Shown: positions 33,926 to 48,109 of the stretch, in pieces
Layout: every line of letters starts with the position of its first letter
How positions within the stretch are numbered: position 1 is the stretch's first letter
Assembly (NCBI GenBank): GCA_016787785.1
Contig: JAEUTO010000004.1
Span: 186,001 to 250,000, forward strand
DNA length: 64,000 nucleotides
From: Bacteroidia bacterium
GTDB taxonomy: Bacteria > Bacteroidota > Bacteroidia > B-17B0 > Aurantibacillaceae
Reading direction: 5' to 3'
Position numbers and translations under genes: made by a program
The notes under the pieces: generated by a model
Seen by the model: the letters and a program-made list of their open reading frames with translations, nothing else
The model's database searches: none
Told to the model about the DNA's origin: nothing

Positions 33926-34016
33926 TTTCTTCTTAAAAACACAGAAATTCTGCTATTGTTTATAAACCTGTTAATCTCTCTTCAAGTTTAGAAAATTTAG
34001 CCCTTCAAATATTAAT

Positions 34017-34024
34017 TACTTTTG
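34017..34024 (+). promoter_or_regulatory. -7 box almost touching a start codon
   Basis: TACTTTTG matches TAnnTTTG and ends only 5 bp before ATG 34030. Transcription from this box would begin at or next to the A of the start codon, giving a leaderless or nearly leaderless mRNA. Confidence 0.4.
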
Positions 34025-34029
34025 AACAA

Positions 34030-34848
34030 ATGAGCATTGTTACTTTAACAACCGATCTGGGTTACCGCGATCCATACTTAGCAATTGTTAAGGCTAAACT
34101 TTTTTCGCAATTACCCGATGTAAAGATCATAGATCTGAGTTGTGATATTAAAGACAATAATATTTCCGACGCCGCATTTATTTTAAAAAACGCATTGCCT
34201 TATTTTCCGGAGGGTACTATTCATTTAATGGCGGTAAAATTTATTATTGATAGCGGCAACGCAAATAAACAAACGGGCATTGATAATACACGTTATTTAA
34301 TTTCAAAATATAAAGGGCAATATATTATTTGTCCCGATAATGGTTTGTTCTCTTTAATTGATTCTAATTTTAACGAGCCGGTCTATCAGTTATATTATGA
34401 TGGAAACGCGAGGCATCACTTTTTTTTAAAAGATATTTTTGTGGATGCTGCCATTCATATTTCAAAAACAAAACATGCAGATGATATTAGTATGCCTGCC
34501 GCAGAGTATTACAAAGCTTTTCAGTTTGAAAGTTTTGTAAGCGGAAATATTTTAAGAGGCAAGGGAATTTATGTAGATGATTTTGGAAATATTATTACCA
34601 ATATTACCGAGCAACAATTTAACGAGGTTATTGGTAAACGTAATTTTAGCATAACATTACCCGGCGCGCGCATTAATAAAATTGTAAGTACTTACGATGA
34701 GGTAAAGCAAGGGCAGCCTCTTGTATTGTTTAACAGCTTTGGTAATTTAGAAGTAGCAGTAAATGGCAAAAGCGCTTTGAACATGTTATGTCCGCGCGAT
34801 ATTGGCAGTAAATTTGATTTTAATTTATTAATAGAATTTTATGATTAA
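34030..34848 (+). CDS. SAM hydrolase (adenosine-forming), DUF62 family
   Basis: This family (S-adenosyl-L-methionine hydroxide adenosyltransferase) splits SAM to adenosine and methionine and is related to fluorinases. In 272 residues it has the N-terminal LTTDLGYRDPYLAIVKA, then DLSCDIKDNNISDAAFIL, YIICPDNGLFSL, KDIFVDAAIHIS and the C-terminal barrel with YVDDFGNIITNIT. All the usual blocks are present. It overlaps the next gene by 8 bp, which implies translational coupling. Confidence 0.9.
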   Translation: MSIVTLTTDLGYRDPYLAIVKAKLFSQLPDVKIIDLSCDIKDNNISDAAFILKNALPYFPEGTIHLMAVKFIIDSGNANKQTGIDNTRYLISKYKGQYIICPDNGLFSLIDSNFNEPVYQLYYDGNARHHFFLKDIFVDAAIHISKTKHADDISMPAAEYYKAFQFESFVSGNILRGKGIYVDDFGNIITNITEQQFNEVIGKRNFSITLPGARINKIVSTYDEVKQGQPLVLFNSFGNLEVAVNGKSALNMLCPRDIGSKFDFNLLIEFYD

Positions 34849-35131
34849 ACGCATTGTAAAAATGAGTTTTAAACCGCAAAATACAGAAGCCTTTAAAACT
34901 ATTTTTGAGAACAACTGGCAAAAGATAAAAGGTTTTGAAGGTTGCAGTTCGGTAGACTTGTTACAGGATGTAAATAATCCAGAAATTTTTTTCACATACA
35001 GTTTATGGCAAAGCGAAGAACATTTAAATAACTATCGCAACTCCGAATTATTTAATACCGTATGGGGTGCAACCAAAATTTTATTTAATGCAAAACCCGA
35101 AGCCTGGAGTGTGAAAAGTGTTTTGGTTTGA
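34841..35131 (+). CDS. Antibiotic biosynthesis monooxygenase (ABM) domain protein
   Basis: This small dimeric ferredoxin-like protein has 96 residues with the ABM pattern: IVKMSFKPQNTEAFKTIF, GFEGCSSVDLLQDVNNPEIFFTYSLWQSEEHLNNYRNSELF and a C-terminal AWSVKSV strand. Members degrade haem or act as monooxygenases or mere binders; the specific role is not evident. It begins 8 bp inside the SAM hydrolase gene. Its stop TGA abuts the stop of the convergent gene (palindrome TGATCA). Confidence 0.82.
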   Translation: MIKRIVKMSFKPQNTEAFKTIFENNWQKIKGFEGCSSVDLLQDVNNPEIFFTYSLWQSEEHLNNYRNSELFNTVWGATKILFNAKPEAWSVKSVLV

Positions 35132-35326
35132 TCAGGAGTAGTGATCTGTTTTTTTCTTACGATTTAAAATTAAAAAATCATCAACCATTTGAACAGAGTT
35201 GCCAATTACCATAATGGCGTGGATAAGATCTGCTTCTTCGCAATTCAAGATAACGCTCCAATCTTTTATAGCTTCTTTATTGTGAAGGTTGATCTTTGTT
35301 TCTTTTATATTTGATGGTAGCTGCAT
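35132..35326 (-). CDS. DUF3606 small protein
   Basis: This protein of 64 residues matches the DUF3606 pattern: KINLHNKEAIKDWSVILNCEEADLIHAIMVIGNSVQMVDDFL. No enzymatic residues are evident, and the function of the family is unknown. Its start lies 36 bp from the nearest element of a palindromic operator array, so it is probably the leftward gene of that control region. Confidence 0.78.
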   Translation of the reverse strand: MQLPSNIKETKINLHNKEAIKDWSVILNCEEADLIHAIMVIGNSVQMVDDFLILNRKKKTDHYS

Positions 35327-35361
35327 GGTGCTAATTTCGGATAATAAGACGGTAAGCGCAA

Positions 35362-35448
35362 TGAGTATATTTACCTATTTTTTGTATAGGTAATTTTACT
35401 GTAAATAGGTAGGTAATTTTACTTAAAAAAGGTAGGTAAATTTACCTA
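35362..35448. promoter_or_regulatory. Operator array A: four palindromes with 23-25 bp spacing
   Basis: One perfect 16-bp palindrome TAGGTAAATTTACCTA (35433-35448) and three imperfect ones start at 35410 (TAGGTAATTTTACTTA), 35387 (TAGGTAATTTTACTGT) and 35362 (TGAGTATATTTACCTA). The start-to-start distances are 25, 23 and 23 bp, about two helical turns. It lies in the divergent gap between the DUF3606 gene and the gene at 35587. The perfect form recurs twice at 41636-41675. Confidence 0.75.
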
Positions 35449-35508
35449 TTTATATATGTTAAAAATTATCTAAATAATTAATAATCATCTGTTTGACTTT
35501 TTTGACGG

Positions 35509-35540
35509 TTTGCAGTTTTACGCAACTTACTTTACATTTT
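35509..35540 (+). promoter_or_regulatory. Candidate promoter of the 35587 gene
   Basis: TTTG at 35509-35512, a 20-bp spacer and TACATTTT at 35533-35540 give a near match to the Bacteroidota promoter (TTTG-N17-23-TAnnTTTG). The start codon is 46 bp further on. Operator array A lies directly upstream. Confidence 0.5.
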
Positions 35541-35586
35541 CAGTATATTGTAAACATAAATCATTACTAACTTAAAAACAAAACTT

Positions 35587-35901
35587 ATGAGCTTTACAGG
35601 AAGAGAAGACCATCATGTAACACTGGCAGAAGCCACAGCATGGACAGCAAATTACCGCAACGCTAACCCGGGTGCAGTTAGAAGTCATTTTTATGGAAAA
35701 GACGCTATTAATGCAATTTTAGCGCAAAGCAATTGTGTTGGTATTAGAATTTATCATGCAATAAACGATCGCGCTGAAAAAGTATTGGTTTTAGTTGGCG
35801 TAAAAGCCGATGAAAGCGATATGTACACTGGTTTAATGGCAGAACGTGGTTTAATGTGTCCTCCAACATGTCCTCCTTCGAGTCCATTAAACGAGGGTTA
35901 A
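35587..35901 (+). CDS. Small conserved protein of unknown function (MSFTGREDH type)
   Basis: This protein of 104 residues has no signal peptide or membrane helix. It starts MSFTGREDHHVTLAEATAWT and continues with HFYGKDAINAILAQSNCVGIRIYHA, a strand pair EKVLVLVGVKADESDMY and a Cys/Pro-rich end with CPPTCPP. I recall similar orphan proteins in Bacteroidota but know no function. The compact alpha/beta pattern and C-terminal Cys pair could bind a metal; this is a guess. It is directly behind operator array A and is closed by its own terminator, so it is a likely main output of that control region. Confidence 0.75.
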   Translation: MSFTGREDHHVTLAEATAWTANYRNANPGAVRSHFYGKDAINAILAQSNCVGIRIYHAINDRAEKVLVLVGVKADESDMYTGLMAERGLMCPPTCPPSSPLNEG

Positions 35902-35918
35902 CAATTCTTTATGTATTT

Positions 35919-35942
35919 TTAAGGCGGCTAAGCCGCCTTAAT
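35919..35942. terminator. Terminator after the 35587 gene
   Basis: TTAAGGCGGCT and AGCCGCCTTAA flank a single A; the stem is very GC-rich, with T/A-rich flanks on both sides. Confidence 0.8.
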
Positions 35943-35953
35943 TATTTTATAGT

Positions 35954-36607
35954 ATGGATAAACAGCAACTTGTTTTTTTTTATATAAATATCGCTTCTTC
36001 AAGTTTAAGTTTAGTGCCTTTAGTAATCTCTGTAATTAATTTTATTAAAATAGATCTAATTTTAAAACCAATTTTTTGGCTTGTTGTTATTAATGTTACA
36101 GTTGAAATATTAAGTTTTGTCTTTCTTCAAGTAAACTTCAGTAATAAATATATGCTCCATTACTTTACAGTTGCTGAGTTTGGATTGATCAGTTTGTTTT
36201 ATAGCTTTTTCTTAAAAGATTATTTTAAACCACTATTAATTTATCTATTAATTCCGGTATTTCTTTTAGCAGCAATTATTGATTACAAGGTATATGGCCT
36301 ATCTTCCTCCTATAATTTTTCTTCTTCCGTTGAATGTATATTGCTTATTTTTTACTCGCTTTTCTTTTTTTATTATGTACTAAAAAATTTAATTTTCGAA
36401 AATCTTCTCTCTACTCCGGTTTTCTGGGTCAATACAGCAATCCTGTTCTATTTCTCTGGCAACTTAATCTTGTTTGTATTTAGTAATTATATGGCGATGG
36501 TCGATCCGCTCAAGCTCGCAATTTTATGGTCCGTCATTCATACTTTTTTTAATGTTTTATATAATGTATTTTTAAGCATTGGATTTTGGAAAACAAGGGG
36601 CAAATAG
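35954..36607 (+). CDS. Integral membrane protein, six to seven helices, kinase-associated
   Basis: This protein of 217 residues is almost entirely hydrophobic, with helices at about 8-28, 38-58, 66-88, 93-110, 125-143, 157-177 and 185-210. No known domain is recognised. It overlaps the start of the histidine kinase gene by 22 bp. The kinase itself has only one helix and no sensor domain, so this protein is a good candidate for its separate input subunit; that is inference from context. Confidence 0.72.
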   Translation: MDKQQLVFFYINIASSSLSLVPLVISVINFIKIDLILKPIFWLVVINVTVEILSFVFLQVNFSNKYMLHYFTVAEFGLISLFYSFFLKDYFKPLLIYLLIPVFLLAAIIDYKVYGLSSSYNFSSSVECILLIFYSLFFFYYVLKNLIFENLLSTPVFWVNTAILFYFSGNLILFVFSNYMAMVDPLKLAILWSVIHTFFNVLYNVFLSIGFWKTRGK

Positions 36608-37392
36608 ATATCTACACATTAATAATTATTTCAACGCTGGGTGTGCTGGTGTTGGTGTTATTTTTAGTGTTTATTATAGCACTTTACCAAAAACGTATGC
36701 TAGCCAATAAAACCATGTTAATTGATACCGAGAACAAACACCAAAAAAAATTATTGGATGCTTCACTCGAAATTGCCGAACAAGAGCGTGTAAAAATTGC
36801 TGTTAACCTGCACGATGATATTGGTATTACCTTTAATGTTCTTAAAATGAATCTTAGTCGCCTTAAAAAGAACATTGATAAAAAAGAGGTGTTTGACGAA
36901 ATAATTGCGGCCAGTAATAAGAATATCGATGACTCGATGGAGACCGTGCGCTCTATTTATAATGATATACTTCCGCCAACGCTTACTAATATGGGATTTG
37001 TAAAAGGCCTCAAGGAAGTGTGCAACCAGATAAGTAAAACGGGAGGAATGGAAATTACTTTTCATTCAGAACAGGAAAGCATAGAGTTTGATAAAAAAAT
37101 AAAGATACAGTTATACCGTTTGGTAAAAGAGATATTAAATAATACCGTTAAACACGCAAAACCTACACTCATAGAAATTAATATTGAAAATACCCTGGAT
37201 AATTTAATTGTAAGTATCTTGCATAACGGTATGGGAATAACAACAGAACAGATCAAAAAATTTGCCGAAACATCAACAGGCCTTGGATTAAAAAGTATTT
37301 TAACCCGCGCCCAACTCATAAATGCACAAATTGATTTTACAATTCTAAACAGTAAACAGGCACAGGTTATTATAAAAACTCCTTTAATATGA
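36586..37392 (+). CDS. NarX/DesK-type sensor histidine kinase (HisKA_3)
   Basis: This kinase of 268 residues has one membrane helix (about 9-31), then a coiled stretch and a HisKA_3 domain (about 65-130) with the phospho-acceptor His in VNLHDDIGITFNVLK. The HATPase domain (about 165-268) has EILNNTVKHAKP and GLGLKSILTRAQ. The start is TTG 36586, inside the end of the membrane-protein gene; there is no ATG nearby. It overlaps the NarL-type regulator by 4 bp (ATGA), its evident partner. Confidence 0.9.
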   Translation: MENKGQIDIYTLIIISTLGVLVLVLFLVFIIALYQKRMLANKTMLIDTENKHQKKLLDASLEIAEQERVKIAVNLHDDIGITFNVLKMNLSRLKKNIDKKEVFDEIIAASNKNIDDSMETVRSIYNDILPPTLTNMGFVKGLKEVCNQISKTGGMEITFHSEQESIEFDKKIKIQLYRLVKEILNNTVKHAKPTLIEINIENTLDNLIVSILHNGMGITTEQIKKFAETSTGLGLKSILTRAQLINAQIDFTILNSKQAQVIIKTPLI

Positions 37393-38051
37393 AAAAGCTA
37401 CCTCCTTTAATTAAAATCGCAGTTGTAGACGATCATCAACTCTTCCGGGTAGGTGTAGTAGCCTTATTGGGTGATTATAATGATATGGAAGTTGTACTTG
37501 AGGCATCCAATGGCAGAGATCTTTTGAATCAGTTAAAACGCAGCACGCCGCATTTAGTACTATTGGATATTGAAATGCCTGAAATGAATGGTATAGAAAC
37601 TACCCTCGCGTTAAAAAAAGAATACCCGGATATAAAGATCATTATTTTAACGATGCACAATGAAGAGGAATTTATTTTCGATCTCATGAACAAAGGCGCC
37701 AATGGATTTTTACCGAAAGATAAAAGTGTTGAGACAGTTGTAGATGCTATTTACTCTGTTATGCAAAAAGGGTATTATTACAACGATCAAATTACGCAGG
37801 CTATAATAAAAGGCAACAGCGGTTATCTTAAAGCACCTGAATTATTAAATAAAGCAGCTTCTTTAACAGAACGCGAAATAGAGATAATTAAACTTATTTG
37901 CGAGCAAAAAACAAACCGCGAAATTGGCGAGATACTTTTTATAAGTGCCAGAACGGTAGATAATCACAAAACAAATATCTTTACCAAGATAGGCACTAAA
38001 ACAACTATTGGTATTGTAATGTTTGCCATGCAGGCAAAGCTTATCAGTTAA
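37389..38051 (+). CDS. NarL/FixJ-family response regulator
   Basis: This DNA-binding regulator of 220 residues has a receiver domain (about 8-125) with D14/D15, the phospho-acceptor D60 in VLLDIEMPEMNG and K in GFLPKD. The LuxR-type helix-turn-helix (about 155-218) has LTEREIEIIKLICEQKTNREIGEILFISARTVDNHKTNIFTKIG. It is the last gene of the membrane protein-kinase-regulator operon. It is the only LuxR-type DNA-binding regulator encoded between the two operator arrays, so it is a candidate to bind them. Confidence 0.94.
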   Translation: MKKLPPLIKIAVVDDHQLFRVGVVALLGDYNDMEVVLEASNGRDLLNQLKRSTPHLVLLDIEMPEMNGIETTLALKKEYPDIKIIILTMHNEEEFIFDLMNKGANGFLPKDKSVETVVDAIYSVMQKGYYYNDQITQAIIKGNSGYLKAPELLNKAASLTEREIEIIKLICEQKTNREIGEILFISARTVDNHKTNIFTKIGTKTTIGIVMFAMQAKLIS

Positions 38052-38195
38052 AAACAACTGTTTTTTATTTACATTATTGCACGCGGCCAATCAACAGATC
38101 GTAGATTGTTTTAGTTCCATTTGAGAAGACCCCAACTCTTCGTTATTATACTACTATATAAATTTATTTGTAGTTCCCGGGTCACAACGGCTGCT

Positions 38196-39293
38196 TTAGG
38201 TCATATTTAGATCCGTTGGTAACGTAATAGTAAAAACACTGCCATTATTCAATTTACTTTCAACACCAACAGTGCCGCCTAGTTTTTTTATACCATTTGC
38301 TACAAGATATAAACCAAGACCCGAACCCTTCGAATCTTCGGTACCCCTAAAATACATTTCAAAAATGCGATCTTTTATTCCTGCGTCAATCCCAATACCG
38401 TTATCTTTAATTTCAATTTTTACGCCTGCATCAACGTCAAGAACCCAGATGTCAATATAAGGACCCGGTTGTGAAAGATTGCGGTATTTAATGCCATTTT
38501 CTAAAATGTGATAGAGCACCGAATTGAGTATCGACTCATCTGAGAAAAAGGATTTTTTATTTTCGATACTAACCTTAAATTTCAGATCTTCATAACCTTC
38601 TACATATTTAAGACGTTTTATTACTATATCTATCAAAGACCTAAGGTCAATCTTAGATAGAACCGGCATTGTGTCTTTAATAGACATCACATCAATCAAT
38701 GATAGCAGAACGGCATCTAATTTTAAGGTGCTTTCGGATATCTTATGTATTAAGTCTTTAAAGTTCGCTTTTTCTCCCTCCATCTCTGCCAACTTTGTTA
38801 AACCCATTATGGAACATAAAGGCCCTCTGAGGTCGTGCGCAGCTTTATAAATAAAAGTATTTAATTCTTTGTTTGTGGCCTCCAGCTCCATGTTAACTCT
38901 GCGTTTATCTGCCTCCATTCTCCGGGCTTTTAATGCTTGTTTAATAGCAGAAGGAAGGCGTACGAGATTGTTCTTTAAGATATAATCATCAGCACCTTCT
39001 TTAATGCACCTAATGGCAAATTCTTCAGATACACTTCCGGTTATTAATATAAAAGGAATTTCGAAATTATTTTCGTTGTAAATACTTAATGCTTCAATCG
39101 AATCAAATTGTGGTAATGAGTGATCGGATAAAATAACATCAGGGTTATAATTTTTAAGAGCGCTACTATAATCATTCTTTGTTTCAACTACCTTAACTGT
39201 AAAATCAATGCCGCTTTGTTTTAACTCGCGTGCTATTAATCCTGCGTCTGCAGGGTTATCTTCAATATGTAATATTTTTAATTGTTTAGTCAT
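38196..39293 (-). CDS. Receiver-histidine kinase hybrid (REC-HisKA-HATPase)
   Basis: This cytoplasmic protein of 365 residues has an N-terminal receiver domain (about 5-122) with E11/D12 and D57 in ILSDHSLP, a coiled linker (about 125-145), a HisKA domain with H153 in KAAHDLRGPLCSIMGL and an HATPase domain ending at about 362 (NGIGIDAGIKDRIFEMYFRGTEDSKGSGLGLYL). There are no membrane segments. Receiver at the N-terminus and kinase at the C-terminus is a phosphorelay middle or input element. It lies downstream of a single-domain regulator on the same strand, 24 bp away. Confidence 0.92.
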   Translation of the reverse strand: MTKQLKILHIEDNPADAGLIARELKQSGIDFTVKVVETKNDYSSALKNYNPDVILSDHSLPQFDSIEALSIYNENNFEIPFILITGSVSEEFAIRCIKEGADDYILKNNLVRLPSAIKQALKARRMEADKRRVNMELEATNKELNTFIYKAAHDLRGPLCSIMGLTKLAEMEGEKANFKDLIHKISESTLKLDAVLLSLIDVMSIKDTMPVLSKIDLRSLIDIVIKRLKYVEGYEDLKFKVSIENKKSFFSDESILNSVLYHILENGIKYRNLSQPGPYIDIWVLDVDAGVKIEIKDNGIGIDAGIKDRIFEMYFRGTEDSKGSGLGLYLVANGIKKLGGTVGVESKLNNGSVFTITLPTDLNMT

Positions 39294-39317
39294 TTAAAGT
39301 TTAGCATATCAATAGTA

Positions 39318-39764
39318 TTAGCGTGGCGATTGGTTTATCATTAGCCAGAATAAACCTAAATCGGCCACTGCTCGTGCAAAATTTTCGAAGGATACGGGTT
39401 TAACAACATAACCGTTAACACCTAACTTATAACTTTCAACCAGGTCGCGATCTTCGCGCGATGACGTCATGATCACCACCGGTATGCTCTGCGTGCGGGC
39501 ATCAGCTTTAAGTTCACTTAAAACCTGCAGTCCATCTATTTTTGGCATTTTAAGATCGAGCAAAATTAGCTTGGGTTTATCATCGATTTTTCTATCGGCA
39601 TATTCTCCTTTTCCAAAAAAGAAATCAAGTGCTTCTGCGCCATCTTTTAAATGTAAGATGTTGTTGCATAAATTATTTTTTTTTAGCGAGCGGATCACAA
39701 GATTAGCATCTTCCATACTATCTTCTACTAAAATAATTTCTATGTTGTGCATTGCGTTTTCCAT
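39318..39764 (-). CDS. Single-domain response regulator, Rcp1 type
   Basis: This receiver-only protein of 148 residues has E14/D15, the phospho-acceptor D70 in LILLDLKMPKIDG, T in VIMTSSREDRD and K in YVVKPVSFE. The extended loop before D70 and the EDRDLVESYKLGVNGY block are typical of Rcp1-like regulators that partner phytochrome-like kinases. The kinase just upstream (7 bp away) is the obvious donor. An internal ATG at codon 5 is an alternative start. Confidence 0.9.
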   Translation of the reverse strand: MENAMHNIEIILVEDSMEDANLVIRSLKKNNLCNNILHLKDGAEALDFFFGKGEYADRKIDDKPKLILLDLKMPKIDGLQVLSELKADARTQSIPVVIMTSSREDRDLVESYKLGVNGYVVKPVSFENFARAVADLGLFWLMINQSPR

Positions 39765-39771
39765 ATACTGT

Positions 39772-41112
39772 TTAATATTTAATTGGAATTGAAAAATAAA
39801 AAGTAGCGCCTACATTCACTTCTGCTTTCGCCCACACCTCGCCACTATGTTTTTTAATAATGCGCTGTACCATAGCAATGCCAACGCCTGTGCCCTCAAA
39901 TTCAGAATCACTGTGAAGTCGTTGAAACACGCCAAATAATTTTTTGTAATATTTCATATCAAAGCCAGCGCCATTGTCTTTTACATAATAAACCATGTTT
40001 TCTTTTTCCTTATAAGAACCTATTTCAATAACAGATTTTTCTTTTTTGCCGGAATATTTAATTGCATTTGAAATAAGATTTGTAAAAACCTGATGTATCA
40101 TGCTGTTGTCACCTTCTATATCCTCTAATGGTTTAACAATAAATTCCACACTATTTTTTTGTTTCTGGTTTGTAAATTCCCTGATAACAGAATCTACCAT
40201 GTTGCTCATTCTCAAAGTAATTTTTTTCAGATCCTGTTTTCCTATCCTTGAAAAAGTAAGCAGGTCGTCTATTAACGCAGCCATCTTAGCAGCATTCCTT
40301 ATAATAACGTTTACAGTTTGTTTTCCTTCTTCATTCAGCATATGACCATGATCCTCCATCAACACATGCGAATATCCTTTAATGGCCCTTAACGGCGCGC
40401 GAAGATCATGAGAAACGGAATACGAGAACGAATCAAGTTCTTTGTTAGCATAAGCTAATTCAGCATTAGAGTTTTTGAGTAAGTACATATAATTCTCTAA
40501 CTCATCAATTACCGAATTAAGGCCAACAACAATAGCATCAAGCTCATCGCCTTTATCCGTTGTTTTAAGTCGCTCCGAGAAATCGAGCGTTGTGAATTTT
40601 AACAGCGCGTTAAGTATTTGGTTTATTCGCGCATCATTTTCTTTGATGAGTTTTGATTTTTTATCGATCTCATTTTGTAAGTATACACTTCCGGTAACAT
40701 CTTCTACCTGATGGATGATATAGAGCAACTCGTTGTTTTCATTAAGGACTGGTGAATTCTTTGGATTCCAAAATCGCTCTTCAAAACAAATGCCGTTTTC
40801 TGTTGTAACCTGTATATCATACTTTTGAATTTGCATTTTATGCGGTTGTTTTTTTTCAATGACATTTTTCAATGACATTCTCAAATTGCTAACGCCGGTT
40901 GCATTTAGGTCGGCCGGGTTATCAGGAAATACTTCAAATAGATCCCTGTTTATAATTTCAGAACAGGTTGTTTGGGTAGCCAGGCAGTAGGCATCTGTGG
41001 CATCGAGTATGGTAAATTTTGGGGGGTTAGGTTTAAGAAGAAGAAATAGAACCGGCGCTGCATGAAATACGCAGCCATGATCAACGTGTATATCAGAATT
41101 GTTTAAGCTCAT
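39772..41112 (-). CDS. PAS-sensor histidine kinase, soluble, Cph1-like transmitter
   Basis: This kinase of 446 residues has no membrane helix. A PAS-like sensor (about 12-155) is followed by a HAMP-like helical segment (about 175-215, LDFSERLKTTDKGDELDAIV), a HisKA domain with the phospho-acceptor His near residue 235 in SVSHDLRAPLRAIKGY and an HATPase domain (NLISNAIKYSGKKEK, GAGFDMKYYKKLFGVFQRLH). The ligand of the PAS domain is unknown. It lies 6 bp after the STAS-like gene and 7 bp before the Rcp1-type regulator, in one leftward operon (41517 to 38196). Confidence 0.92.
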   Translation of the reverse strand: MSLNNSDIHVDHGCVFHAAPVLFLLLKPNPPKFTILDATDAYCLATQTTCSEIINRDLFEVFPDNPADLNATGVSNLRMSLKNVIEKKQPHKMQIQKYDIQVTTENGICFEERFWNPKNSPVLNENNELLYIIHQVEDVTGSVYLQNEIDKKSKLIKENDARINQILNALLKFTTLDFSERLKTTDKGDELDAIVVGLNSVIDELENYMYLLKNSNAELAYANKELDSFSYSVSHDLRAPLRAIKGYSHVLMEDHGHMLNEEGKQTVNVIIRNAAKMAALIDDLLTFSRIGKQDLKKITLRMSNMVDSVIREFTNQKQKNSVEFIVKPLEDIEGDNSMIHQVFTNLISNAIKYSGKKEKSVIEIGSYKEKENMVYYVKDNGAGFDMKYYKKLFGVFQRLHSDSEFEGTGVGIAMVQRIIKKHSGEVWAKAEVNVGATFYFSIPIKY

Positions 41113-41118
41113 GAAAGG

Positions 41119-41517
41119 TTATAAATGTTGTTTAAGCCAGGCTTTAGCATCTTCCTCATTGTTAAAAATTTTTGTTGGATAGGACTGCGTCTTAATCGTA
41201 AAAAATAAATTGGCCAACATTTTTCCAAGGGCAGAATTAGATACCAACGCCAGCGCTTTTACATATTTTGGAAATTCCTGGGCTATGTAGTCCTTTATTT
41301 CGCGGGTTGACTCCGCAATGTGTGTTACGTCAGCCAGCATACATACTTTCTTTCCTCCAAGCATTTTACTAAACTCATCCATCGATTTTTTTGTTTCTTC
41401 AAGTGAAGGTGGGTTTACTCTTTTTTTTGATATCGAATACATAATGCCATCTTCGTCTATCCACGAAGTGGATGCCGGCCACTCTTGCACTGTAACATTT
41501 GATGGAATTTTTAACAT
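41119..41517 (-). CDS. STAS/SpoIIAA-like fold protein (function unknown)
   Basis: This soluble protein of 132 residues has a strand-helix pattern like the STAS/SEC14-type proteins found beside Bacteroidota kinases (I recall a DUF7793-type family): WIDEDGIMYSISKKRVNPPSLEETKKSMDEFSKMLGGKKVCMLADVTHIAESTREIKDYIAQEF, then ALALVSNSALGKMLANLFFTIKTQSYPTKIFNNEEDAKAWL. The ADVTHI segment sits where STAS proteins have their regulatory Ser/Thr. It is the first gene of the leftward kinase operon, with operator array B 119 bp upstream of its ATG. Confidence 0.65.
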   Translation of the reverse strand: MLKIPSNVTVQEWPASTSWIDEDGIMYSISKKRVNPPSLEETKKSMDEFSKMLGGKKVCMLADVTHIAESTREIKDYIAQEFPKYVKALALVSNSALGKMLANLFFTIKTQSYPTKIFNNEEDAKAWLKQHL

Positions 41518-41635
41518 ACAATTAGTTTAAGCAACAATATTATACCAGCGTTTTTGTAAAAGAGTTTACAATTATTTAAGTAAGTTACAAAAGAAAAGAC
41601 CTTTTTTCTTTAAAATCTTGACGCGAAGTGAAAAA

Positions 41636-41675
41636 TAGGTAAATTTACCTACCTTTTGATAGGTAAATTTACCTA
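41636..41675. promoter_or_regulatory. Operator array B: two perfect copies of TAGGTAAATTTACCTA
   Basis: Perfect 16-bp palindromes lie at 41636-41651 and 41660-41675, 24 bp start to start. They are in the 370-bp divergent gap between the STAS-like/kinase operon (left) and the single receiver gene (right). The same palindrome forms array A at 35362-35448. The rest of the gap (41676-41887) is AT-rich; possible weak -7 boxes are TATATTTA 41833-41840 and TACTTTTA 41838-41845. Confidence 0.75.
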
Positions 41676-41887
41676 TACGAAATTGACAAAAAATAGCGGG
41701 GAAAGGAGTTCTTTTGCCTAGGCATTGTGCTGTATTTTAAAAAATAACCGAGGTTAAAGATCTTGAGATGCAGAAGTAGTTGATTTTTAATTTTAGATAA
41801 AAAGCAGTATAAATTGTTTCTTTAATAAAATTATATTTACTTTTATTAAAATTAAGTTTTTTAAAAAGAATAATAAATTTTGTGATC

Positions 41888-42304
41888 ATGAAAAGAAAAG
41901 ACCCTCAGTTCAAATACAAATATGCGATGTTATTGGACGATAACGAGCTGGATAATTTCATCAATCAAAAGATCATAGAAGCAAATCATTTTGCATCTAA
42001 AATTTATATTAATACAGGAAGCAAAAGCGCGCTTGAATTTTTACATAATCTTTCCATTTCAAGTACAGATGCAGTTAGTATTTTTCCGGAAATTATATTC
42101 GTGGATCTTAATATGCCAATGATGGACGGTTTTCAGTTCATTGAGAATCTGAAAAGCAAACTACCAGAAAAATTAAAGAATCTAAAACTTGTGATTTTAA
42201 CTTCATCCGTAAATCCGGAGGATAAGAAAAAGGCAGCTGAAATAGCTTTGGATATTACCTTCTTAAATAAACCGTTAACGCAGGAGATGTTAGACAAGCT
42301 CTAA
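41888..42304 (+). CDS. Single-domain response regulator
   Basis: This receiver-only protein of 138 residues has D17/D18, the phospho-acceptor D73 in IFVDLNMPMMDG, LTSS and the Lys in FLNKPL. ATG 41888 is preferred to the GTG at 41882 two codons earlier. It is alone on the right side of operator array B. Its stop codon overlaps that of the convergent helical protein gene (CTAA at 42301-42304). No output domain is present, so it must act through a partner or as a phosphate sink. Confidence 0.88.
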   Translation: MKRKDPQFKYKYAMLLDDNELDNFINQKIIEANHFASKIYINTGSKSALEFLHNLSISSTDAVSIFPEIIFVDLNMPMMDGFQFIENLKSKLPEKLKNLKLVILTSSVNPEDKKKAAEIALDITFLNKPLTQEMLDKL

Positions 42305-43725
42305 AGCATCTGGTATTTTCTTTTTAATTCGGGGATCAAGTGCGATAACACCTCATTACTCTTTTTATTATTAGCCATGAATAATGTAAAAAGATCCTTA
42401 TTCTTGGCTAGTGCTTTCGCGTTGCCGGTCTTGTTCATTTCCGATTCAAATATCTTTATTACATGCAACACATGGTAATATTTTTCTATTTGCTCTGACT
42501 TGATCTTTCGCGAAACACTTTTTAAAGTTAATTCAACCAGCTCGTACTCTTTTTGAAAGAGATAGAAATAGGCAAGGGTTAGTTTAACGTTTATACTTTC
42601 ATGAAAAAAGTCCTTAAAACTAAAATTATTTAAAATGTTATTTAAGCAGTTTATAGCCTCTTTAAGGTTCTTTTGTTTAAAATGTAGCATAGCGTTGTAA
42701 ATGGCAATTACAACACGCGCATGGCTATCCTCAGAGTCGTGAAGCATCTCTATGGTTTTTGGGTCTTCCAAAAGATCTTCGTTTCGGTCGGTTTCGTCAC
42801 AAAACTTTATTTTAGTGCACAAAAACTTAGAGGTAATACAAATATTATTGTACAAGAGTAAGGTGTGTAGGTTGTCATTTACTTTTTCATAAAAGCCCAA
42901 GGCAGTTTTGTATTCAGAAATTGAGATGTAGTATTCAAATGCCAGGTAATCTAAAACTATTTCCCATTTTTTTTGCGGTGAGGTTTGGGGCAATTCAGAA
43001 AAGATCTTCCTCATGTTTTGAATGATCTCAACAGTTGAAGTTCCAATGCCTTTCGTCTCTTCGCAGAAAAGATTCATTTGTAATTCAATAAAATATTTTA
43101 TGATCTCTATCTGGTGCGAGCGGTTAAGGACGTATAGATTGGCGATCTCATTATTAAGAAAATAAAGTGTATCAAGATCTTGCTGACTTCTTGAAAAGTT
43201 ATACCTACCCAAAATGCGGTTAAAGTTTCCTAAGATCTCTTCGGCTTTTTCGAGCGATAGGGCAAAGGCAGTATGTTTATTGAATAGTTGCGAATAATAG
43301 AAATATTTTTCAGAGTACAAATGCATTTTTTTTAATGCACTATATACAACAAGTAGATCGTTATGCAGCTCAAATTTTAGCAGTTCTTTTTCGAGCTTAT
43401 TTAAAAATGCTATGGCTGTTTCGCGCGGCATATTAAAACAAACTTCAGGCACTTGCAATAGCTGCTTTATAAGGTTCTCTCTTGTGCTAAAAACATCTAC
43501 CGACAAATGCTCCTGGATCTTATCATACAACCTCGATTTTAAAACGTAAAATGAATTAGAACTGATAACCAGCTGTTTTATTATTTCAGCGTCCGATAAA
43601 CTACCACTTCGATACGACTGAAAAAGAAGCGAGTAATTATCAGCTTTTGTTTTTTTAAAAGACTCATCTATCCGTGTAAAATCGTTATCGTTTAACTGCG
43701 TTATAACTTGTTTTAACTTGATCAT
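42301..43725 (-). CDS. Large helical protein with TPR-like repeats, function unknown
   Basis: This soluble protein of 474 residues is almost all alpha-helix. Degenerate 34-residue-like repeats are visible in the C-terminal half: ALGFYEKVNDNLHTLLLYNN, VVIAIYNAMLHFKQKNLKEAINCLNNIL and LTLAYFYLFQKEYELVELTLKSV. There is no signal peptide or catalytic motif. Such proteins are scaffold or regulator-binding candidates. It is placed tail-to-tail with a single receiver protein. A TAAATTTG box (minus strand, 43765-43772) lies 40 bp upstream of its ATG. Confidence 0.72.
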   Translation of the reverse strand: MIKLKQVITQLNDNDFTRIDESFKKTKADNYSLLFQSYRSGSLSDAEIIKQLVISSNSFYVLKSRLYDKIQEHLSVDVFSTRENLIKQLLQVPEVCFNMPRETAIAFLNKLEKELLKFELHNDLLVVYSALKKMHLYSEKYFYYSQLFNKHTAFALSLEKAEEILGNFNRILGRYNFSRSQQDLDTLYFLNNEIANLYVLNRSHQIEIIKYFIELQMNLFCEETKGIGTSTVEIIQNMRKIFSELPQTSPQKKWEIVLDYLAFEYYISISEYKTALGFYEKVNDNLHTLLLYNNICITSKFLCTKIKFCDETDRNEDLLEDPKTIEMLHDSEDSHARVVIAIYNAMLHFKQKNLKEAINCLNNILNNFSFKDFFHESINVKLTLAYFYLFQKEYELVELTLKSVSRKIKSEQIEKYYHVLHVIKIFESEMNKTGNAKALAKNKDLFTLFMANNKKSNEVLSHLIPELKRKYQML

Positions 43726-44033
43726 TGGAGTATTTTTTTAAAAATAAGTTAGTGTAAATTTAAACAAATTTAAATTAACCAATAATTGTGGTCTTTATTT
43801 TTTGGGGTGTGAAATTTAAATGCAACGAGTACCAGATCTTTTTAGTTAGCCCGGAGTTCATTATTTAAAGAGGGTACAGGGCTTCTGACTAGTTTTTTTC
43901 CCAATTTTGGAAAGTAAACAAAATTCAAAAGAATCTTACATATGTGGTTTTGTACCCAAAATCAGTAAGTTATTCTTTTTTAATCGCCGCAACTTTACAC
44001 TATAAAGTAATTCATTAATAAAAAAAATAAATC
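43726..44033. other. 308-bp divergent intergenic gap
   Basis: This AT-rich gap lies between the leftward helical-protein gene and the rightward duplicated secreted-protein gene. A TAAATTTG box on the minus strand (43765-43772) may serve the left gene. TTTTG 43948-43952 followed 18 bp later by TATTCTTT is a weak candidate for the right gene. No ORF, hairpin or operator palindrome is seen. Confidence 0.4.
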
Positions 44034-44930
44034 ATGAAAAAGACATTAAACACATCAGCAATGTTAATGGTAATTGGTCTCTTCTTATTTGTAAATACAA
44101 CGTTTGGTTCTACTAAGGAGCCTGCGGCAGGAGTTTGCCTAAAATTAAACGGGTTGATCTTAAAATCACCAAAGGCCGAAAGAGGTTTGTATAAGGTAGT
44201 GCTAATACATTCGGATGTTGTTGTAGATTCGAGTTTAGTTTCTATTAACAAACCATTTGAATTTAATCTGGTAAGAAACTCATTATATACCGTACGTATT
44301 ACAAAAGAAGGATTTGTTCCTTTATTCTTAGAAGTTGATACAAAATTAACACCAGAACATAATGGCGTGTACGAATTCCGTTTTCAAACAGAATTGGTTG
44401 ATAGTAGTAAGGCACATACTTTAGATAAAGCAAGTTTAAATATGCCTGTTGGCATAGTAAAGTACGACGAGGTAAATAATAGATTTTACCCGATTGAAGC
44501 GCCTAAAGAGGAAAGTGTGGTAAAAAGTTTAACCTGTTTAAAACTAAATGGTTTAATTTTAAAGTCGCCAAAAGAAGAAAGAGGTTTATATAAAGTAGAA
44601 TTGCTTCAGGATAACACGGTAGTTGATTCAAAATTGATCGGGGTAAACAAAACATTTGAATTTGCCCTGGCAAAAAATTCGTGGTACACCGTGCGTATCT
44701 CAAAACCGGGATTTGTTCCCTTATTGATAAGTGTAGATACAGAGTTGAACAAAGAAAATCCAACACTTTATGAATTTAATTTTGAGACTGAGCTTTATCA
44801 CAACTCAAGCGTGAATAGTATTGACAGAGATAGTTTTGATCTGCCTTTTGGCTTAGTAAAGTTTGACGAAAGTAATAACAGGTTCTACCCGGTATCAGAT
44901 TATAGAGCGCATATCCCCGGATCATTCTAA
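44034..44930 (+). CDS. Exported protein made of two tandem copies of a ~135-residue domain
   Basis: This protein has 298 residues with a signal peptide (MKKTLNTSAMLMVIGLFLFV, cleavage near TFG). Two repeats (about 35-160 and 173-297) share CLKLNGLILKSPKxERGLYKV, SxxxxNKxFEFxLxxNSxYTVRIxKxGFVPLxxxVDT and GxVKxDExNNRFYP. Each unit resembles a carboxypeptidase-regulatory-like or CNA-B-like beta-sandwich. DNA identity is still visible between copies, so the duplication is fairly recent or under concerted change. No sorting tail is present; a periplasmic location is likely. It is followed 17 bp later by a receiver gene. Confidence 0.8.
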   Translation: MKKTLNTSAMLMVIGLFLFVNTTFGSTKEPAAGVCLKLNGLILKSPKAERGLYKVVLIHSDVVVDSSLVSINKPFEFNLVRNSLYTVRITKEGFVPLFLEVDTKLTPEHNGVYEFRFQTELVDSSKAHTLDKASLNMPVGIVKYDEVNNRFYPIEAPKEESVVKSLTCLKLNGLILKSPKEERGLYKVELLQDNTVVDSKLIGVNKTFEFALAKNSWYTVRISKPGFVPLLISVDTELNKENPTLYEFNFETELYHNSSVNSIDRDSFDLPFGLVKFDESNNRFYPVSDYRAHIPGSF

Positions 44931-44947
44931 AAAGTCAGGAATTAAAA

Positions 44948-45385
44948 ATGTTTGAGATGATGATAGATAATGTAAAAAAGGCTTCAGTGCTTGTGGTTGA
45001 AGATAATCAATTAGATATGCTGGTAATAAAGGTGCTTTTAGAAAAACATTTTAGCCTGTATATTGTTTCAAGTGGGGAAGAAGCACTTGTAGCTGCTGCA
45101 GAATTTGAGTTTGATTTGGTGCTTTTGGATATTAACCTGGGCGACCATCTGATGGATGGTATAAAGGTGATGCAACTGTTACGCGAAGGTAAAAAAACCA
45201 AAGACCTTAAGATATACGCGGTAACCGCTTATGCAGAGAATATTGATTATTATTTAGAATCGGGCTTTAATAATGTGTTAACTAAGCCGGTAATTAAAGA
45301 AGAGATATTTGATATACTACAACAGTCTGTTGCGAAGGGTCATAAATATTCGGAAACAAGTTTCGGGGCTGAGGGGACTAATTAA
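44948..45385 (+). CDS. Single-domain response regulator
   Basis: This receiver-only protein of 145 residues has E18/D19, the phospho-acceptor D61 in LVLLDINLGDHLMDG, T in AVTAYAEN and K in VLTKPV. The INLGDHLMDG stretch, longer than usual, is of the type seen in receivers fused to or partnering hybrid kinases. It is in one unit with the duplicated secreted protein. It ends 12 bp from the convergent hybrid kinase gene. Confidence 0.9.
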   Translation: MFEMMIDNVKKASVLVVEDNQLDMLVIKVLLEKHFSLYIVSSGEEALVAAAEFEFDLVLLDINLGDHLMDGIKVMQLLREGKKTKDLKIYAVTAYAENIDYYLESGFNNVLTKPVIKEEIFDILQQSVAKGHKYSETSFGAEGTN

Positions 45386-45397
45386 TTTTTTTTGAAA

Positions 45398-47644
45398 CTA
45401 TCTTTTAAATTTCAAAATAAAAGTAGTGCCCTTACCAACGGTACTTTCAATGTCAATGCTTCCATTCATTGCTTCCATTTGTGATTTAACTAAAAAAAGT
45501 CCTAAGCCTTTTCCTTCACCATGATCGTGAAAGCGTTGATATAACCTGAACAAGCGATCTTTGTAGAGATCCACATTCAACCCTAAGCCATTATCGGTAA
45601 ATCGTAAAACAACTTCATCGCCTATAATTTGTGTACTAATTTTAATTTTTAATTCACGTGAGGGCGATCTGTATTTGATAGCGTTAGAGATAAGATTAAA
45701 GAAAATACTTTCGAGATAAGCTTTGTTAAAATGTATAAGCGGCGCCTTATCAAGATCACTTTCAATTTTTGCGTTAATTTCAAGGATCATTGTTTCGTTT
45801 TGCGCAATACCCTTGTTTAAGGCGTCGGCCACAAGAAGATCTTCTTGCGGAATTGAAATATGATCTTTAATATTTAATACTTTGGTAAGATCTTTAATAA
45901 TATCATCAAACATATGCGTTGCCTTTTTTATACCTGCTAATATTTGTTGTAAAGTAGGATCTTCAATTTTGTAACTATCAATTAATGAAGATAAGCCGAG
46001 TAAGCTTGCAATTGGCCCTCTTAAATTGTGTGATGTGATATAGGAGAATTGTTTAAGGTCTTTATTGTTCTGGATCAATTCTGTAATTAATTTTTCTTTT
46101 TCCTGCTCTTCATTTTTTTGTTGTGTAATATCCTGCTTAGCGCCCAACATTCTTACGGCTTTCCCATTTTCGCGAATTATAAAAAAGCGATCGCGCACAT
46201 GCGCATAAGTTCCATCGGCTTTTAAGAACCTGTATTCCACGTCAGCTTGTTTTATGTTTGGGTCGTTTATTGTATTATCCAGTTGTGCAATTAAAGTTTC
46301 TTTTTCATCGGGATGTAATTTCGATTCCCAAAATTGATCTTCCGAAAACTGATTTGCCAGGTTATATCCAAATAAATTCCTGTAACCTTCGCCGGCAATG
46401 TAGGTTCTGTCAATTTCAAAATCATGGTCCCAAATAGCATCGCTGGTAGCTTTTGCTAGCGATTCATAACGCTCAAAATTTTGTCTTAATTTTTGATTGT
46501 AATTTATATTTAATGTTATGTCTCGCGAGTTAGAGACAATGCCCTGCACTGCCGGATCATCCATCATATTGGTGGCAATGGTCTCAAGCCAGATCCAATC
46601 ATTTTTTGCATTCCTAAAACGAAAGGGTGAGATCTGTACTCTTTTTTTTCTTTTTAAAAGATTAAATTGATTAATTACCCTTTGTCTGTCGTCTTCGTGT
46701 ATATAATTAAAGGCATTCTTACCAACAAGATCGATAGCTTGAACACCAAAAATAGTTTTTGACGACGGGCTTAAATATTTATAATTCCCTTCACTGTCTA
46801 AAATGGTTATTAAGTCTGCTGCATCCTGCACTAAAGCCTTGAAGTAATGCTCGCTTCGAATCAAAGCTTCTTGAGTTTTTATTTTTTCCGAAATGTCTGT
46901 TGCTAAAATCAACCAGGCCTCTTTGTGATTAAAATTAATTACACTGCTTTGAATTTCTACGGTAATTACATCGCCGTTTTTTTTAAGATGCGAAGTGATC
47001 TCGCCCGATAAGCCATTTTCTGCTTTGTTTTTTTTAAGTAATACATCTAATTGATCTAACGCCGCAACGGGTTTAATATCCCTTAAATTCATTGATAAAA
47101 ATTCTGCGCCACTATAACCATAATTTTGTATGGCTGAGTCGTTAATGTTTAAAAATTTTAATGTTTCCGGATCAATAACCAACATAGGTATCGGACTTAA
47201 ATGAAAAAGATCGCGGTATTTTTTCTCAGATTCTTTAAGCTCGGTGTTAATACGTTTTCTTTCGATATTGTAAACAATACTTTTATGCAACAGTGATGCA
47301 TTTAACTCATCTTTTAGCAGATAATCTGAAACGCCTAAAGAGAGTGTCTTTAGCCCGAAGTCTTTGTCTTGATGACCCGTAAGTGCTATTATTGGGGAAT
47401 TTCCGGCCATTTTTACAACTTCGTCAACCAATTTTTTTCCGTTAGCGTCGGGCAAGGTTAAGTCAAGAAAAATGATCGCAAAATCATTTTTTCTTTCTAA
47501 TATAGCTATAGTTTCTTTTAATGTTTTTGCGTTGATGATAGTTGTATTTTTAATTTGCTCAACTAAATAGTCTTCAATTAAAACAAAATCACCGGCATTA
47601 TCCTCGATAACTAATATGGATATATTTTTTAAAAACGCAGACAT
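45398..47644 (-). CDS. REC-PAS3-histidine kinase hybrid
   Basis: This soluble protein of 748 residues has a receiver domain (1-125; E14/D15, D61 in IFLDLTLPD), three PAS domains with PAC tails (about 130-250, 260-385 and 390-515; YRFLKADGTYAHVRDR is typical), a HisKA domain with the His near residue 538 in ITSHNLRGPIASLLGL and an HATPase domain. ATG 47644 is chosen because upstream in-frame sequence lies inside the preceding regulator gene. The ATG follows the regulator's stop by 1 bp, so the two are translationally coupled. Confidence 0.92.
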   Translation of the reverse strand: MSAFLKNISILVIEDNAGDFVLIEDYLVEQIKNTTIINAKTLKETIAILERKNDFAIIFLDLTLPDANGKKLVDEVVKMAGNSPIIALTGHQDKDFGLKTLSLGVSDYLLKDELNASLLHKSIVYNIERKRINTELKESEKKYRDLFHLSPIPMLVIDPETLKFLNINDSAIQNYGYSGAEFLSMNLRDIKPVAALDQLDVLLKKNKAENGLSGEITSHLKKNGDVITVEIQSSVINFNHKEAWLILATDISEKIKTQEALIRSEHYFKALVQDAADLITILDSEGNYKYLSPSSKTIFGVQAIDLVGKNAFNYIHEDDRQRVINQFNLLKRKKRVQISPFRFRNAKNDWIWLETIATNMMDDPAVQGIVSNSRDITLNINYNQKLRQNFERYESLAKATSDAIWDHDFEIDRTYIAGEGYRNLFGYNLANQFSEDQFWESKLHPDEKETLIAQLDNTINDPNIKQADVEYRFLKADGTYAHVRDRFFIIRENGKAVRMLGAKQDITQQKNEEQEKEKLITELIQNNKDLKQFSYITSHNLRGPIASLLGLSSLIDSYKIEDPTLQQILAGIKKATHMFDDIIKDLTKVLNIKDHISIPQEDLLVADALNKGIAQNETMILEINAKIESDLDKAPLIHFNKAYLESIFFNLISNAIKYRSPSRELKIKISTQIIGDEVVLRFTDNGLGLNVDLYKDRLFRLYQRFHDHGEGKGLGLFLVKSQMEAMNGSIDIESTVGKGTTFILKFKR

Positions 47645-47645
47645 T

Positions 47646-48083
47646 TTAATTTTTCGCCCTGGTTGGTAGTTGAACGATCGAGATCCAGAAATCTTCAATT
47701 GACGAAATTACTTTTAGGAAATTTGTAGCTTCAACGGGTTTTGTAATAAAACAATTAGCCCTGTTGGTATACGACTCAACAATATCTCGTTCTGATGACG
47801 AAGTGGTTAAAACAATAATGGGAATACTTTTTGTTTTATTGTTTGATTTTAAATTTAAAAGCACCTCTTGTCCGTTCATTTTTGGTAGATTTACGTCTAA
47901 GAGTATAATATCAGGTAATATTCTGTTGCCATATTTGCCGTTCCCCTCCATATATTGAATTGCCTCCCAGCCGTCTTTAATAACGCTTAGTTCGTTAGTG
48001 ATTTTGGCTTCTTTAAGTGCTTCAGTTGTCAACAGAATGTCTCCTTCGTTATCTTCAATAAGTAGTATCTGAACGGGTTTCAT
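47646..48083 (-). CDS. Single-domain response regulator, Rcp1 type
   Basis: This receiver-only protein of 145 residues has E10/D11, the phospho-acceptor D63 in IILLDVNLPKMNG, T in VLTTSSSERD and K in FITKPVEA. It is homologous to the regulator at 39318-39764. It lies between two PAS kinases on the same strand, 26 bp after the first and 1 bp before the second, so either could be its donor. Confidence 0.92.
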   Translation of the reverse strand: MKPVQILLIEDNEGDILLTTEALKEAKITNELSVIKDGWEAIQYMEGNGKYGNRILPDIILLDVNLPKMNGQEVLLNLKSNNKTKSIPIIVLTTSSSERDIVESYTNRANCFITKPVEATNFLKVISSIEDFWISIVQLPTRAKN

Positions 48084-48109
48084 AAAATGAGGGTTTTACC
48101 TAAGTTTGG

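Follow-up and report, generated by a model that had tools for sequence, protein, structure and literature searches.

Which protein reads the row of four palindromes at 35362–35448 of this stretch of DNA, and which genes are placed under its control? The whole stretch that was analysed, 64,000 nucleotides long, is referred to as the window. An initial annotation, made from the letters alone, had placed the row in a divergent promoter region and described it as an array of operators for a dimeric regulator, with a DUF3606 gene to its left and a gene for a 104-residue orphan protein, here called p104, to its right. The four start positions (35362, 35387, 35410 and 35433) and the spacings of 25, 23 and 23 bp were confirmed, as was the DUF3606 assignment, which lies above the Pfam cut-off. 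The array and its neighbours had been recorded, but the downstream operon with the likely regulator, a second array and the regulon had all been missed. The reading put forward here, to which a probability of about 85% is given, is that the array serves as operator region for a two-component system under its own control, whose NarL-type response regulator, encoded at 37389, would be the protein that binds it (Table 1).

Table 1. Features of the window that belong to the proposed regulatory system.
Feature	Coordinates	Strand	Basis or remark
Putative divergent target gene, DUF3606, 64 aa	35132..35326	-	Pfam PF12244, 7e-6
Operator 1, TGAGTATATTTACCTA	35362..35377	.	3 mismatches to TAGGTAAATTTACCTA; DUF3606 side
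Operator 2, TAGGTAATTTTACTGT	35387..35402	.	4 mismatches to TAGGTAAATTTACCTA
Operator 3, TAGGTAATTTTACTTA	35410..35425	.	2 mismatches to TAGGTAAATTTACCTA
Operator 4, perfect TAGGTAAATTTACCTA	35433..35448	.	0 mismatches; signalling-operon side
Orphan protein p104, first gene of the module	35587..35901	+	
Polytopic membrane protein, presumed sensor	35954..36607	+	
Histidine kinase, HisKA_3 + HATPase_c	36586..37392	+	Pfam
NarL/LuxR-type response regulator, proposed operator binder	37389..38051	+	Response_reg + GerE; helix covariation
Recognition-helix region, regulator residues 185-200 (ISARTVDNHKTNIFTK)	37941..37988	+	Placed by comparison with LuxR-type regulators
Putative divergent target, DUF7793/SpoIIAA-like	41119..41517	-	Pfam 2e-24 and 4e-6
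Second array, perfect operator	41636..41651	.	
Second array, perfect operator, 24 bp onward	41660..41675	.	
Putative target, single-domain response regulator	41882..42304	+	Pfam Response_reg

The four operators differ in quality, with 5, 4, 6 and 8 palindromic base pairs out of eight in operators 1 to 4, and a site similar to operator 1 is found at the same place in orthologous loci. When up to four mismatches and steps of 21–27 bp are allowed, the longest chain of sites in the window has four members; in 200 Markov-shuffled windows, it had one member in 197 and two in three. This null is somewhat generous because the array itself supplied the consensus, and the site counts in the genome and its relatives, given below, are a stronger test. 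One part of the original description proved wrong, namely that the sites lie about two turns apart on one face of the DNA: 24 bp makes 2.29 helical turns, which is not near a multiple of 10.5 bp. Neighbouring sites therefore do not face the same way, successive ones being rotated by about 69, 103 or 137 degrees (at 10.5 bp per turn). Apart from this phasing, the idea of a dimeric regulator at a divergent promoter gains from the conservation, intergenic place and constant spacing of the sites and from their covariation with a recognition helix, all of which is sequence evidence. An RNA reading of the region was rejected, since no Rfam family was found within 34000–43000 at gathering scores and no tRNA or tmRNA in the window.

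In all six genomes of the genus that are rich in such sites, the array, of three to four palindromes, sits between a DUF3606 homologue and an operon that encodes p104, a membrane protein, a kinase and a NarL-type regulator. The regulator has a receiver domain and a C-terminal LuxR/GerE helix-turn-helix (Pfam 1e-26 and 4e-16, above cut-offs), and its nearest sequence relatives of solved structure are proteins labelled VraR, then DevR and NarL. The kinase gene next to it, 36586, encodes a HisKA_3 domain (Pfam 4e-8, above cut-off) and has matches, none of which reaches the cut-off, to the MctS, UhpB, NarQ and LiaS models. p104 has kept its status as an orphan: neither Pfam nor NCBIfam gave a family above cut-off (DUF6968 is sub-threshold in Pfam, E 0.003), a PDB sequence search gave no relative, and a fold search of the PDB with its predicted structure (pLDDT 92.4) gave no match at E ≤ 0.001, the best being at E 0.6. 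The members of the p104 family are small, conserved proteins with a C-terminal CPPxC motif that reads CPPTC in the 35587–35901 protein of the window. The membrane protein 35954 has no Pfam or NCBIfam family either, and its AlphaFold model of eight helices (pLDDT 94.6) found no significant fold match, GPCR-like ones appearing at E 0.17 or worse. As neither protein has a significant fold match, their functions are not readable from structure; p104 is possibly a signal, a co-sensor or an output.

Two perfect operator copies, 24 bp apart, make up the second array at 41636 and 41660. Its arrangement with the 41119 gene is kept in the related loci L082 and L092, and homologues of the 41882 response regulator adjoin arrays in L082, L087 and L092. 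Response regulators and PAS or HisKA kinases are crowded around the second array (38196–50407), a neighbourhood that is partly kept in the six genomes.

Over the organism's own genome (4.6 Mb in 16 contigs), 18 sites with up to two mismatches were found, against 2 for a reversed-pattern control. A generic GGTANNNNTACC search was discarded as too loose, with 138 matches against 68 in its control. A scan of 100 relatives, allowing at most one mismatch, gave 6–13 sites in each of six members of the genus, the organism itself included, and 0–3 in the other relatives. Among 40 genomes of the genus, the six rich ones are exactly those with a membrane protein of at least 57% identity, and the other 34 have 0–2 sites; the next genome below (G011, 53% identity) reaches eight sites if any letters are allowed at the four central positions. 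The 62 sites of the six genomes fall into 44 clusters, four to nine per genome. The 16-mer is not scattered inside genes, since no cluster lies within an ORF of at least 80 aa, and a gene begins no more than 350 bp away from 42 of them, as called by a simple ORF finder on genomes that are mostly metagenome bins. The weaker two-mismatch sites of the own genome include one within an 822-aa gene and another that overlaps the start of a gene. The spacing is kept in the relatives as well: neighbouring sites with at most one mismatch and less than 300 bp apart are separated by 24 bp (13 cases), 23 bp (3), 47 bp (2, equal to two steps) or 130 bp (1). With weaker sites sought at 20–27 bp, there are 39 intervals of 23 to 26 bp, and 24 bp accounts for 25 of them. 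Counting sites with up to four mismatches 20–27 bp away, 31 clusters have more than one palindrome and 13 a single one, which suggests that one palindrome is the minimal unit.

From what the sequence gives, namely the conservation, spacing and position of the sites, the operon and the covariation, the following course of signal, phosphorylation, binding and activation may be inferred. The membrane protein 35954 and the kinase 36586 would sense a signal, probably envelope or stress, and would phosphorylate the NarL-type regulator 37389. Dimers of the regulator would attach to TAGGTA-N4-TACCTA palindromes, which mostly come in twos or more at steps of about 24 bp, and would drive the regulator's own operon, the DUF3606 gene at the other end of the array, the gene pair at 41636 and further promoters.

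The regulator is probably an activator, judging by promoter layout. Of 87 operator flanks, 16 have the motif TAnn[TC]TT[GA] beginning at the 24th base past the operator, where 500 shuffles gave at most 5 at any offset, and 17 have TTG beginning at the first base (shuffle maximum 8); these flank counts include orthologous promoters. According to one account (PMC7366714), the primary-sigma promoter consensus of Bacteroidota is TAnnTTTG at -7 and TTTG at about -33. The motif at its fixed place after the operator is like this consensus, and what differs is that the -7 element is held at a fixed distance from an activator-like operator. In flanks with the 24th-base -7 element, the operator stands just upstream of the -33 region, which is comparable to the site at -40 to -49 from which NarL is described as acting positively at napF (PMC4549865), and activation is for this reason the better guess. 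That the same regulator works as a repressor at most promoters is unlikely, if far from fanciful: the same account has NarL both repressing (frdA) and activating (narG) (PMC4549865), but in the 24th-base class the -33 region lies beyond the downstream end of the operator and the -7 element is left uncovered, the other flanks being uninformative, and the napF precedent also speaks against it. For the signalling operon, activation is less sure than for other targets because the p104 and 41119 promoters have no -7 element at the 24th base.

The identity of the binder was approached through related modules. A collection of 151 distinct p104 loci was assembled, 107 of which are followed by all three partners, with the membrane protein ahead of the kinase and the kinase ahead of the regulator in every case; the first position of p104 was built into the search, and the order of the other three was not. 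Five loci from Larkinella and Hymenobacter (L293, L295, L296, L297 and L251) have two tandem p104-family genes. Many paralogous modules have palindrome pairs upstream of p104, often near -150 and 21–26 bp further up. Their operators mostly share a constant GTA-N4-TAC core, and the outer letters are GGG, AGA, CCC, TCC, TAC, TTA, TGA, ATC, ACC and others. A search that assumed no sequence and looked for palindrome pairs 20–27 bp apart upstream of p104 put 38 of the 151 modules above the 99% null, with 1.5 expected and orthologs among the 38. The GTA-N4-TAC core is present in 28 of these pairs and absent in 10. In the other 113 modules, no pair exceeded the threshold, and a recognisable array is thus not a feature of every module. 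At L159, L171 and L201, the pairs lack the GTA core, an example being TAGGGAGTTCTCCCTA twice, 22 bp apart.

The outer letters of the operators follow the recognition helix of the regulator in the same operon. Among 105 regulators with a readable helix, ten have VD[NH]H, and TAGGTANNNNTACCTA lies upstream of the own module in nine of these, as against none of the 95 with other helices (Fisher p 3e-12, relatedness ignored). L304, with a VDNH helix, lacks a perfect site at its own module. To take account of relatedness, a tree of 32 rows was built from receiver domains alone, those of 31 regulators for which an operator had been called and that of L304. On this tree, the VD[NH]H label needs four changes that are forced by well-supported branches, and helix and operator have thus changed together repeatedly, whether by gains or losses. 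The L227 regulator is only 37% identical to that of the window, yet it has VDNH and TAGGTA; two others are 56% identical, yet L223 has TIENL with AGAGTA and L234 has TVESH with TCCGTA. In a set of 21 representatives, all below 65% identity, operator and helix are modestly correlated once the receiver is taken into account (partial r 0.17, permutation p 0.028), and the corresponding value for operator and receiver given the helix is 0.06 (p 0.25). One locus from another genus, L312, has a DUF3606-like neighbour by eye and may therefore be an ortholog and not an independent case.

The same link appears at the level of genomes. When 87 genomes of the order were scanned for TAGGTANNNNTACCTA, at least five sites were found in nine (G000 13, G006 14, G018 8, G020 17, G025 27, G034 13, G011 8, G043 19 and G445 5), and the remaining 77 besides G039 had 0–3. 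All nine have a VD[NH]H regulator; for G445, the regulator was identified as such only once the sites were known, and no perfect site accompanies its VDNH module. G039 has a VDNH regulator and a single TAGGTANNNNTACCTA site, at its own module. There are 51 p104 matches in 39 of the order genomes, 50 of which were fetched. The helix was readable for 41, in 34 genomes, and VD[NH]H occurs in ten of these 34, the nine site-rich ones and G039; since the helix was readable in 41 of the 51 matches, a VD[NH]H regulator could be hidden elsewhere. For AGAGTA- and TACGTA-type operators, the 87 genomes showed no regulon beyond the own modules, with matches that are single or scattered and number at most 4 (G043, TACGTA). 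Their own-module sites number two each in G010 and G033 for AGAGTA and one each in G022, G050 and G042 for TACGTA.

Because the operator letters follow the recognition helix, with several changes on the tree, the module's own regulator is the likely binder, and the operators of the window very probably function as landing sites for the regulator 37389. It is improbable that some other regulator binds the palindromes and that the four-gene operon is just one of its targets: there are other LuxR-type proteins in the genome, such as a 71-aa stand-alone helix-turn-helix protein beside the pair in L036, but the letters go with the helix of the operon's own regulator (9 of 10, as against 0 of 95 for other helices, with several tree changes). 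The 71-aa gene (L036:5062-5277, minus strand), LuxR-type by eye, adjoins the operator pair with its 3' end and has a paralogous p104 module next door. That the palindromes are a dispersed repeat or a terminator-like element without a dedicated protein is very improbable, for although the sites are short, AT-rich, multicopy and sometimes followed by T runs, their clusters avoid ORFs (0 of 44) and accompany gene starts (42 of 44), their spacing is fixed, as is, for some flanks, the distance to the -7 element, paralogous operons bear different letters at a similar place, and Rfam has no match at gathering scores within 34000–43000.

With the regulator 37389 as the proposed binder, its regulon probably includes stress-type and anti-phage genes, some of them behind a near-identical promoter, as far as can be judged from the genes next to operators. 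In one or other relative, such genes encode Pmp3 (L072), a PAS-domain protein (L073), a RelA/SpoT-domain protein (L083), a CLC channel (L088) and a secreted protein with Por_Secre_tail (L085). PADLOC was run on eight proteins picked for a defence-like look or for their place behind single or paired sites. Its matches were strong in four cases: PDC-S60 (own genome, L033, 1265 bits), PD-Lambda-5_A (G020, L094, 476), HEC-05 (G011, L355, 734) and HEC-06 (G011, L078, 160; GmrSD by Pfam). Two matches were weaker (L083, PDC-S33; L031, PDC-S50), and L034 and L037 had none.

A near-identical promoter, operator-TATnnnnTnTCrTTTATTTTGCTTTATTTT, precedes the defence genes of L033, L078 and L094 (not HEC-05) and an unclassified gene of G011 (L354). 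Its 21-base core occurs exactly in G000, G011 (twice), G020 and G046; only exact and one-mismatch core matches were used because those with two mismatches are no commoner than the control in many genomes. The operator at this portable promoter is AGGTGTTTTTACGTA in G046 and, with one core mismatch, TAGGTGTTTTTACCTA in G445, and the modules of these genomes with VDGH helices have own sites that are GTG...CAC- or GTG...TAC-like. The comparison, made by eye between two genomes of one genus, of which G445 also has a VDNH module, suggests that the promoter has been re-lettered to the regulator of its host. At L033, L078, L094, L354, L383 and L384, the near-identical promoter stands before unrelated, mostly anti-phage genes, each with a host-type operator. 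A broader picture can be offered tentatively, at somewhat less than even odds: the operators would keep a GTA-N4-TAC frame in which three outer base pairs track a few helix residues, paralogous systems would coexist without cross-talk, and unrelated anti-phage genes would be plugged in through a portable promoter re-lettered for each host regulator helix, placing defence under stress-sensing two-component control.

The operon occurs across Bacteroidia, and relatives of p104 were found in 77 of 395 genomes of the class (profile, E ≤ 0.001). The best 80 of 94 named p104 loci from GTDB genomes are mostly from Bacteroidota; a few records have other phylum names, labels on metagenome bins that may be mistaken. 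The titles and abstract beginnings listed in a literature search contained no description of the four-gene module or of its two orphan families, and the operator 16-mer did not occur in the papers searched for it, a 12-mer matching one paper on ginseng. The module of Bacteroidota is apparently undescribed.

Among known NarL/FixJ systems, NarXL, LiaSR and VraSR share with this module the combination of a HisKA_3 kinase and a receiver-GerE regulator, and the module differs from them in having the orphan genes for p104 and the membrane protein as two additions ahead of the kinase. The NarL heptamer is TACYYMT in one account (PMC4886647), and the half-site TACCTAT of the present operators fits it. 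The half-sites are reversed, however, GGTA-N4-TACC here as against TACCCCT-AA-AGGGGTA as cited for NarL (PMC4549865). The letters fit, but orientation and spacing differ from the convergent 7-2-7 arrangement of NarL heptamers.

The envelope-stress systems LiaFSR and VraTSR have a three-part layout and, like the module described here, combine a membrane protein in one operon with a kinase and a NarL-type regulator, with that operon as the presumed target. The 35954 protein, lacking a family and a significant fold match, was not recognisable as a LiaF/VraT-type accessory membrane protein, and we know of no counterpart of p104 in these systems. For a signalling module that is widespread and includes two orphan protein families, an operator and a regulon can now be proposed, and the genes found behind the operators suggest that an environmental signal switches some of the anti-phage systems of these bacteria. 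Work on specificity in two-component systems has mostly concerned the pairing of kinase and regulator; here, a natural series of operator and helix pairs is at hand that could serve to work out a specificity code for LuxR-type regulators.
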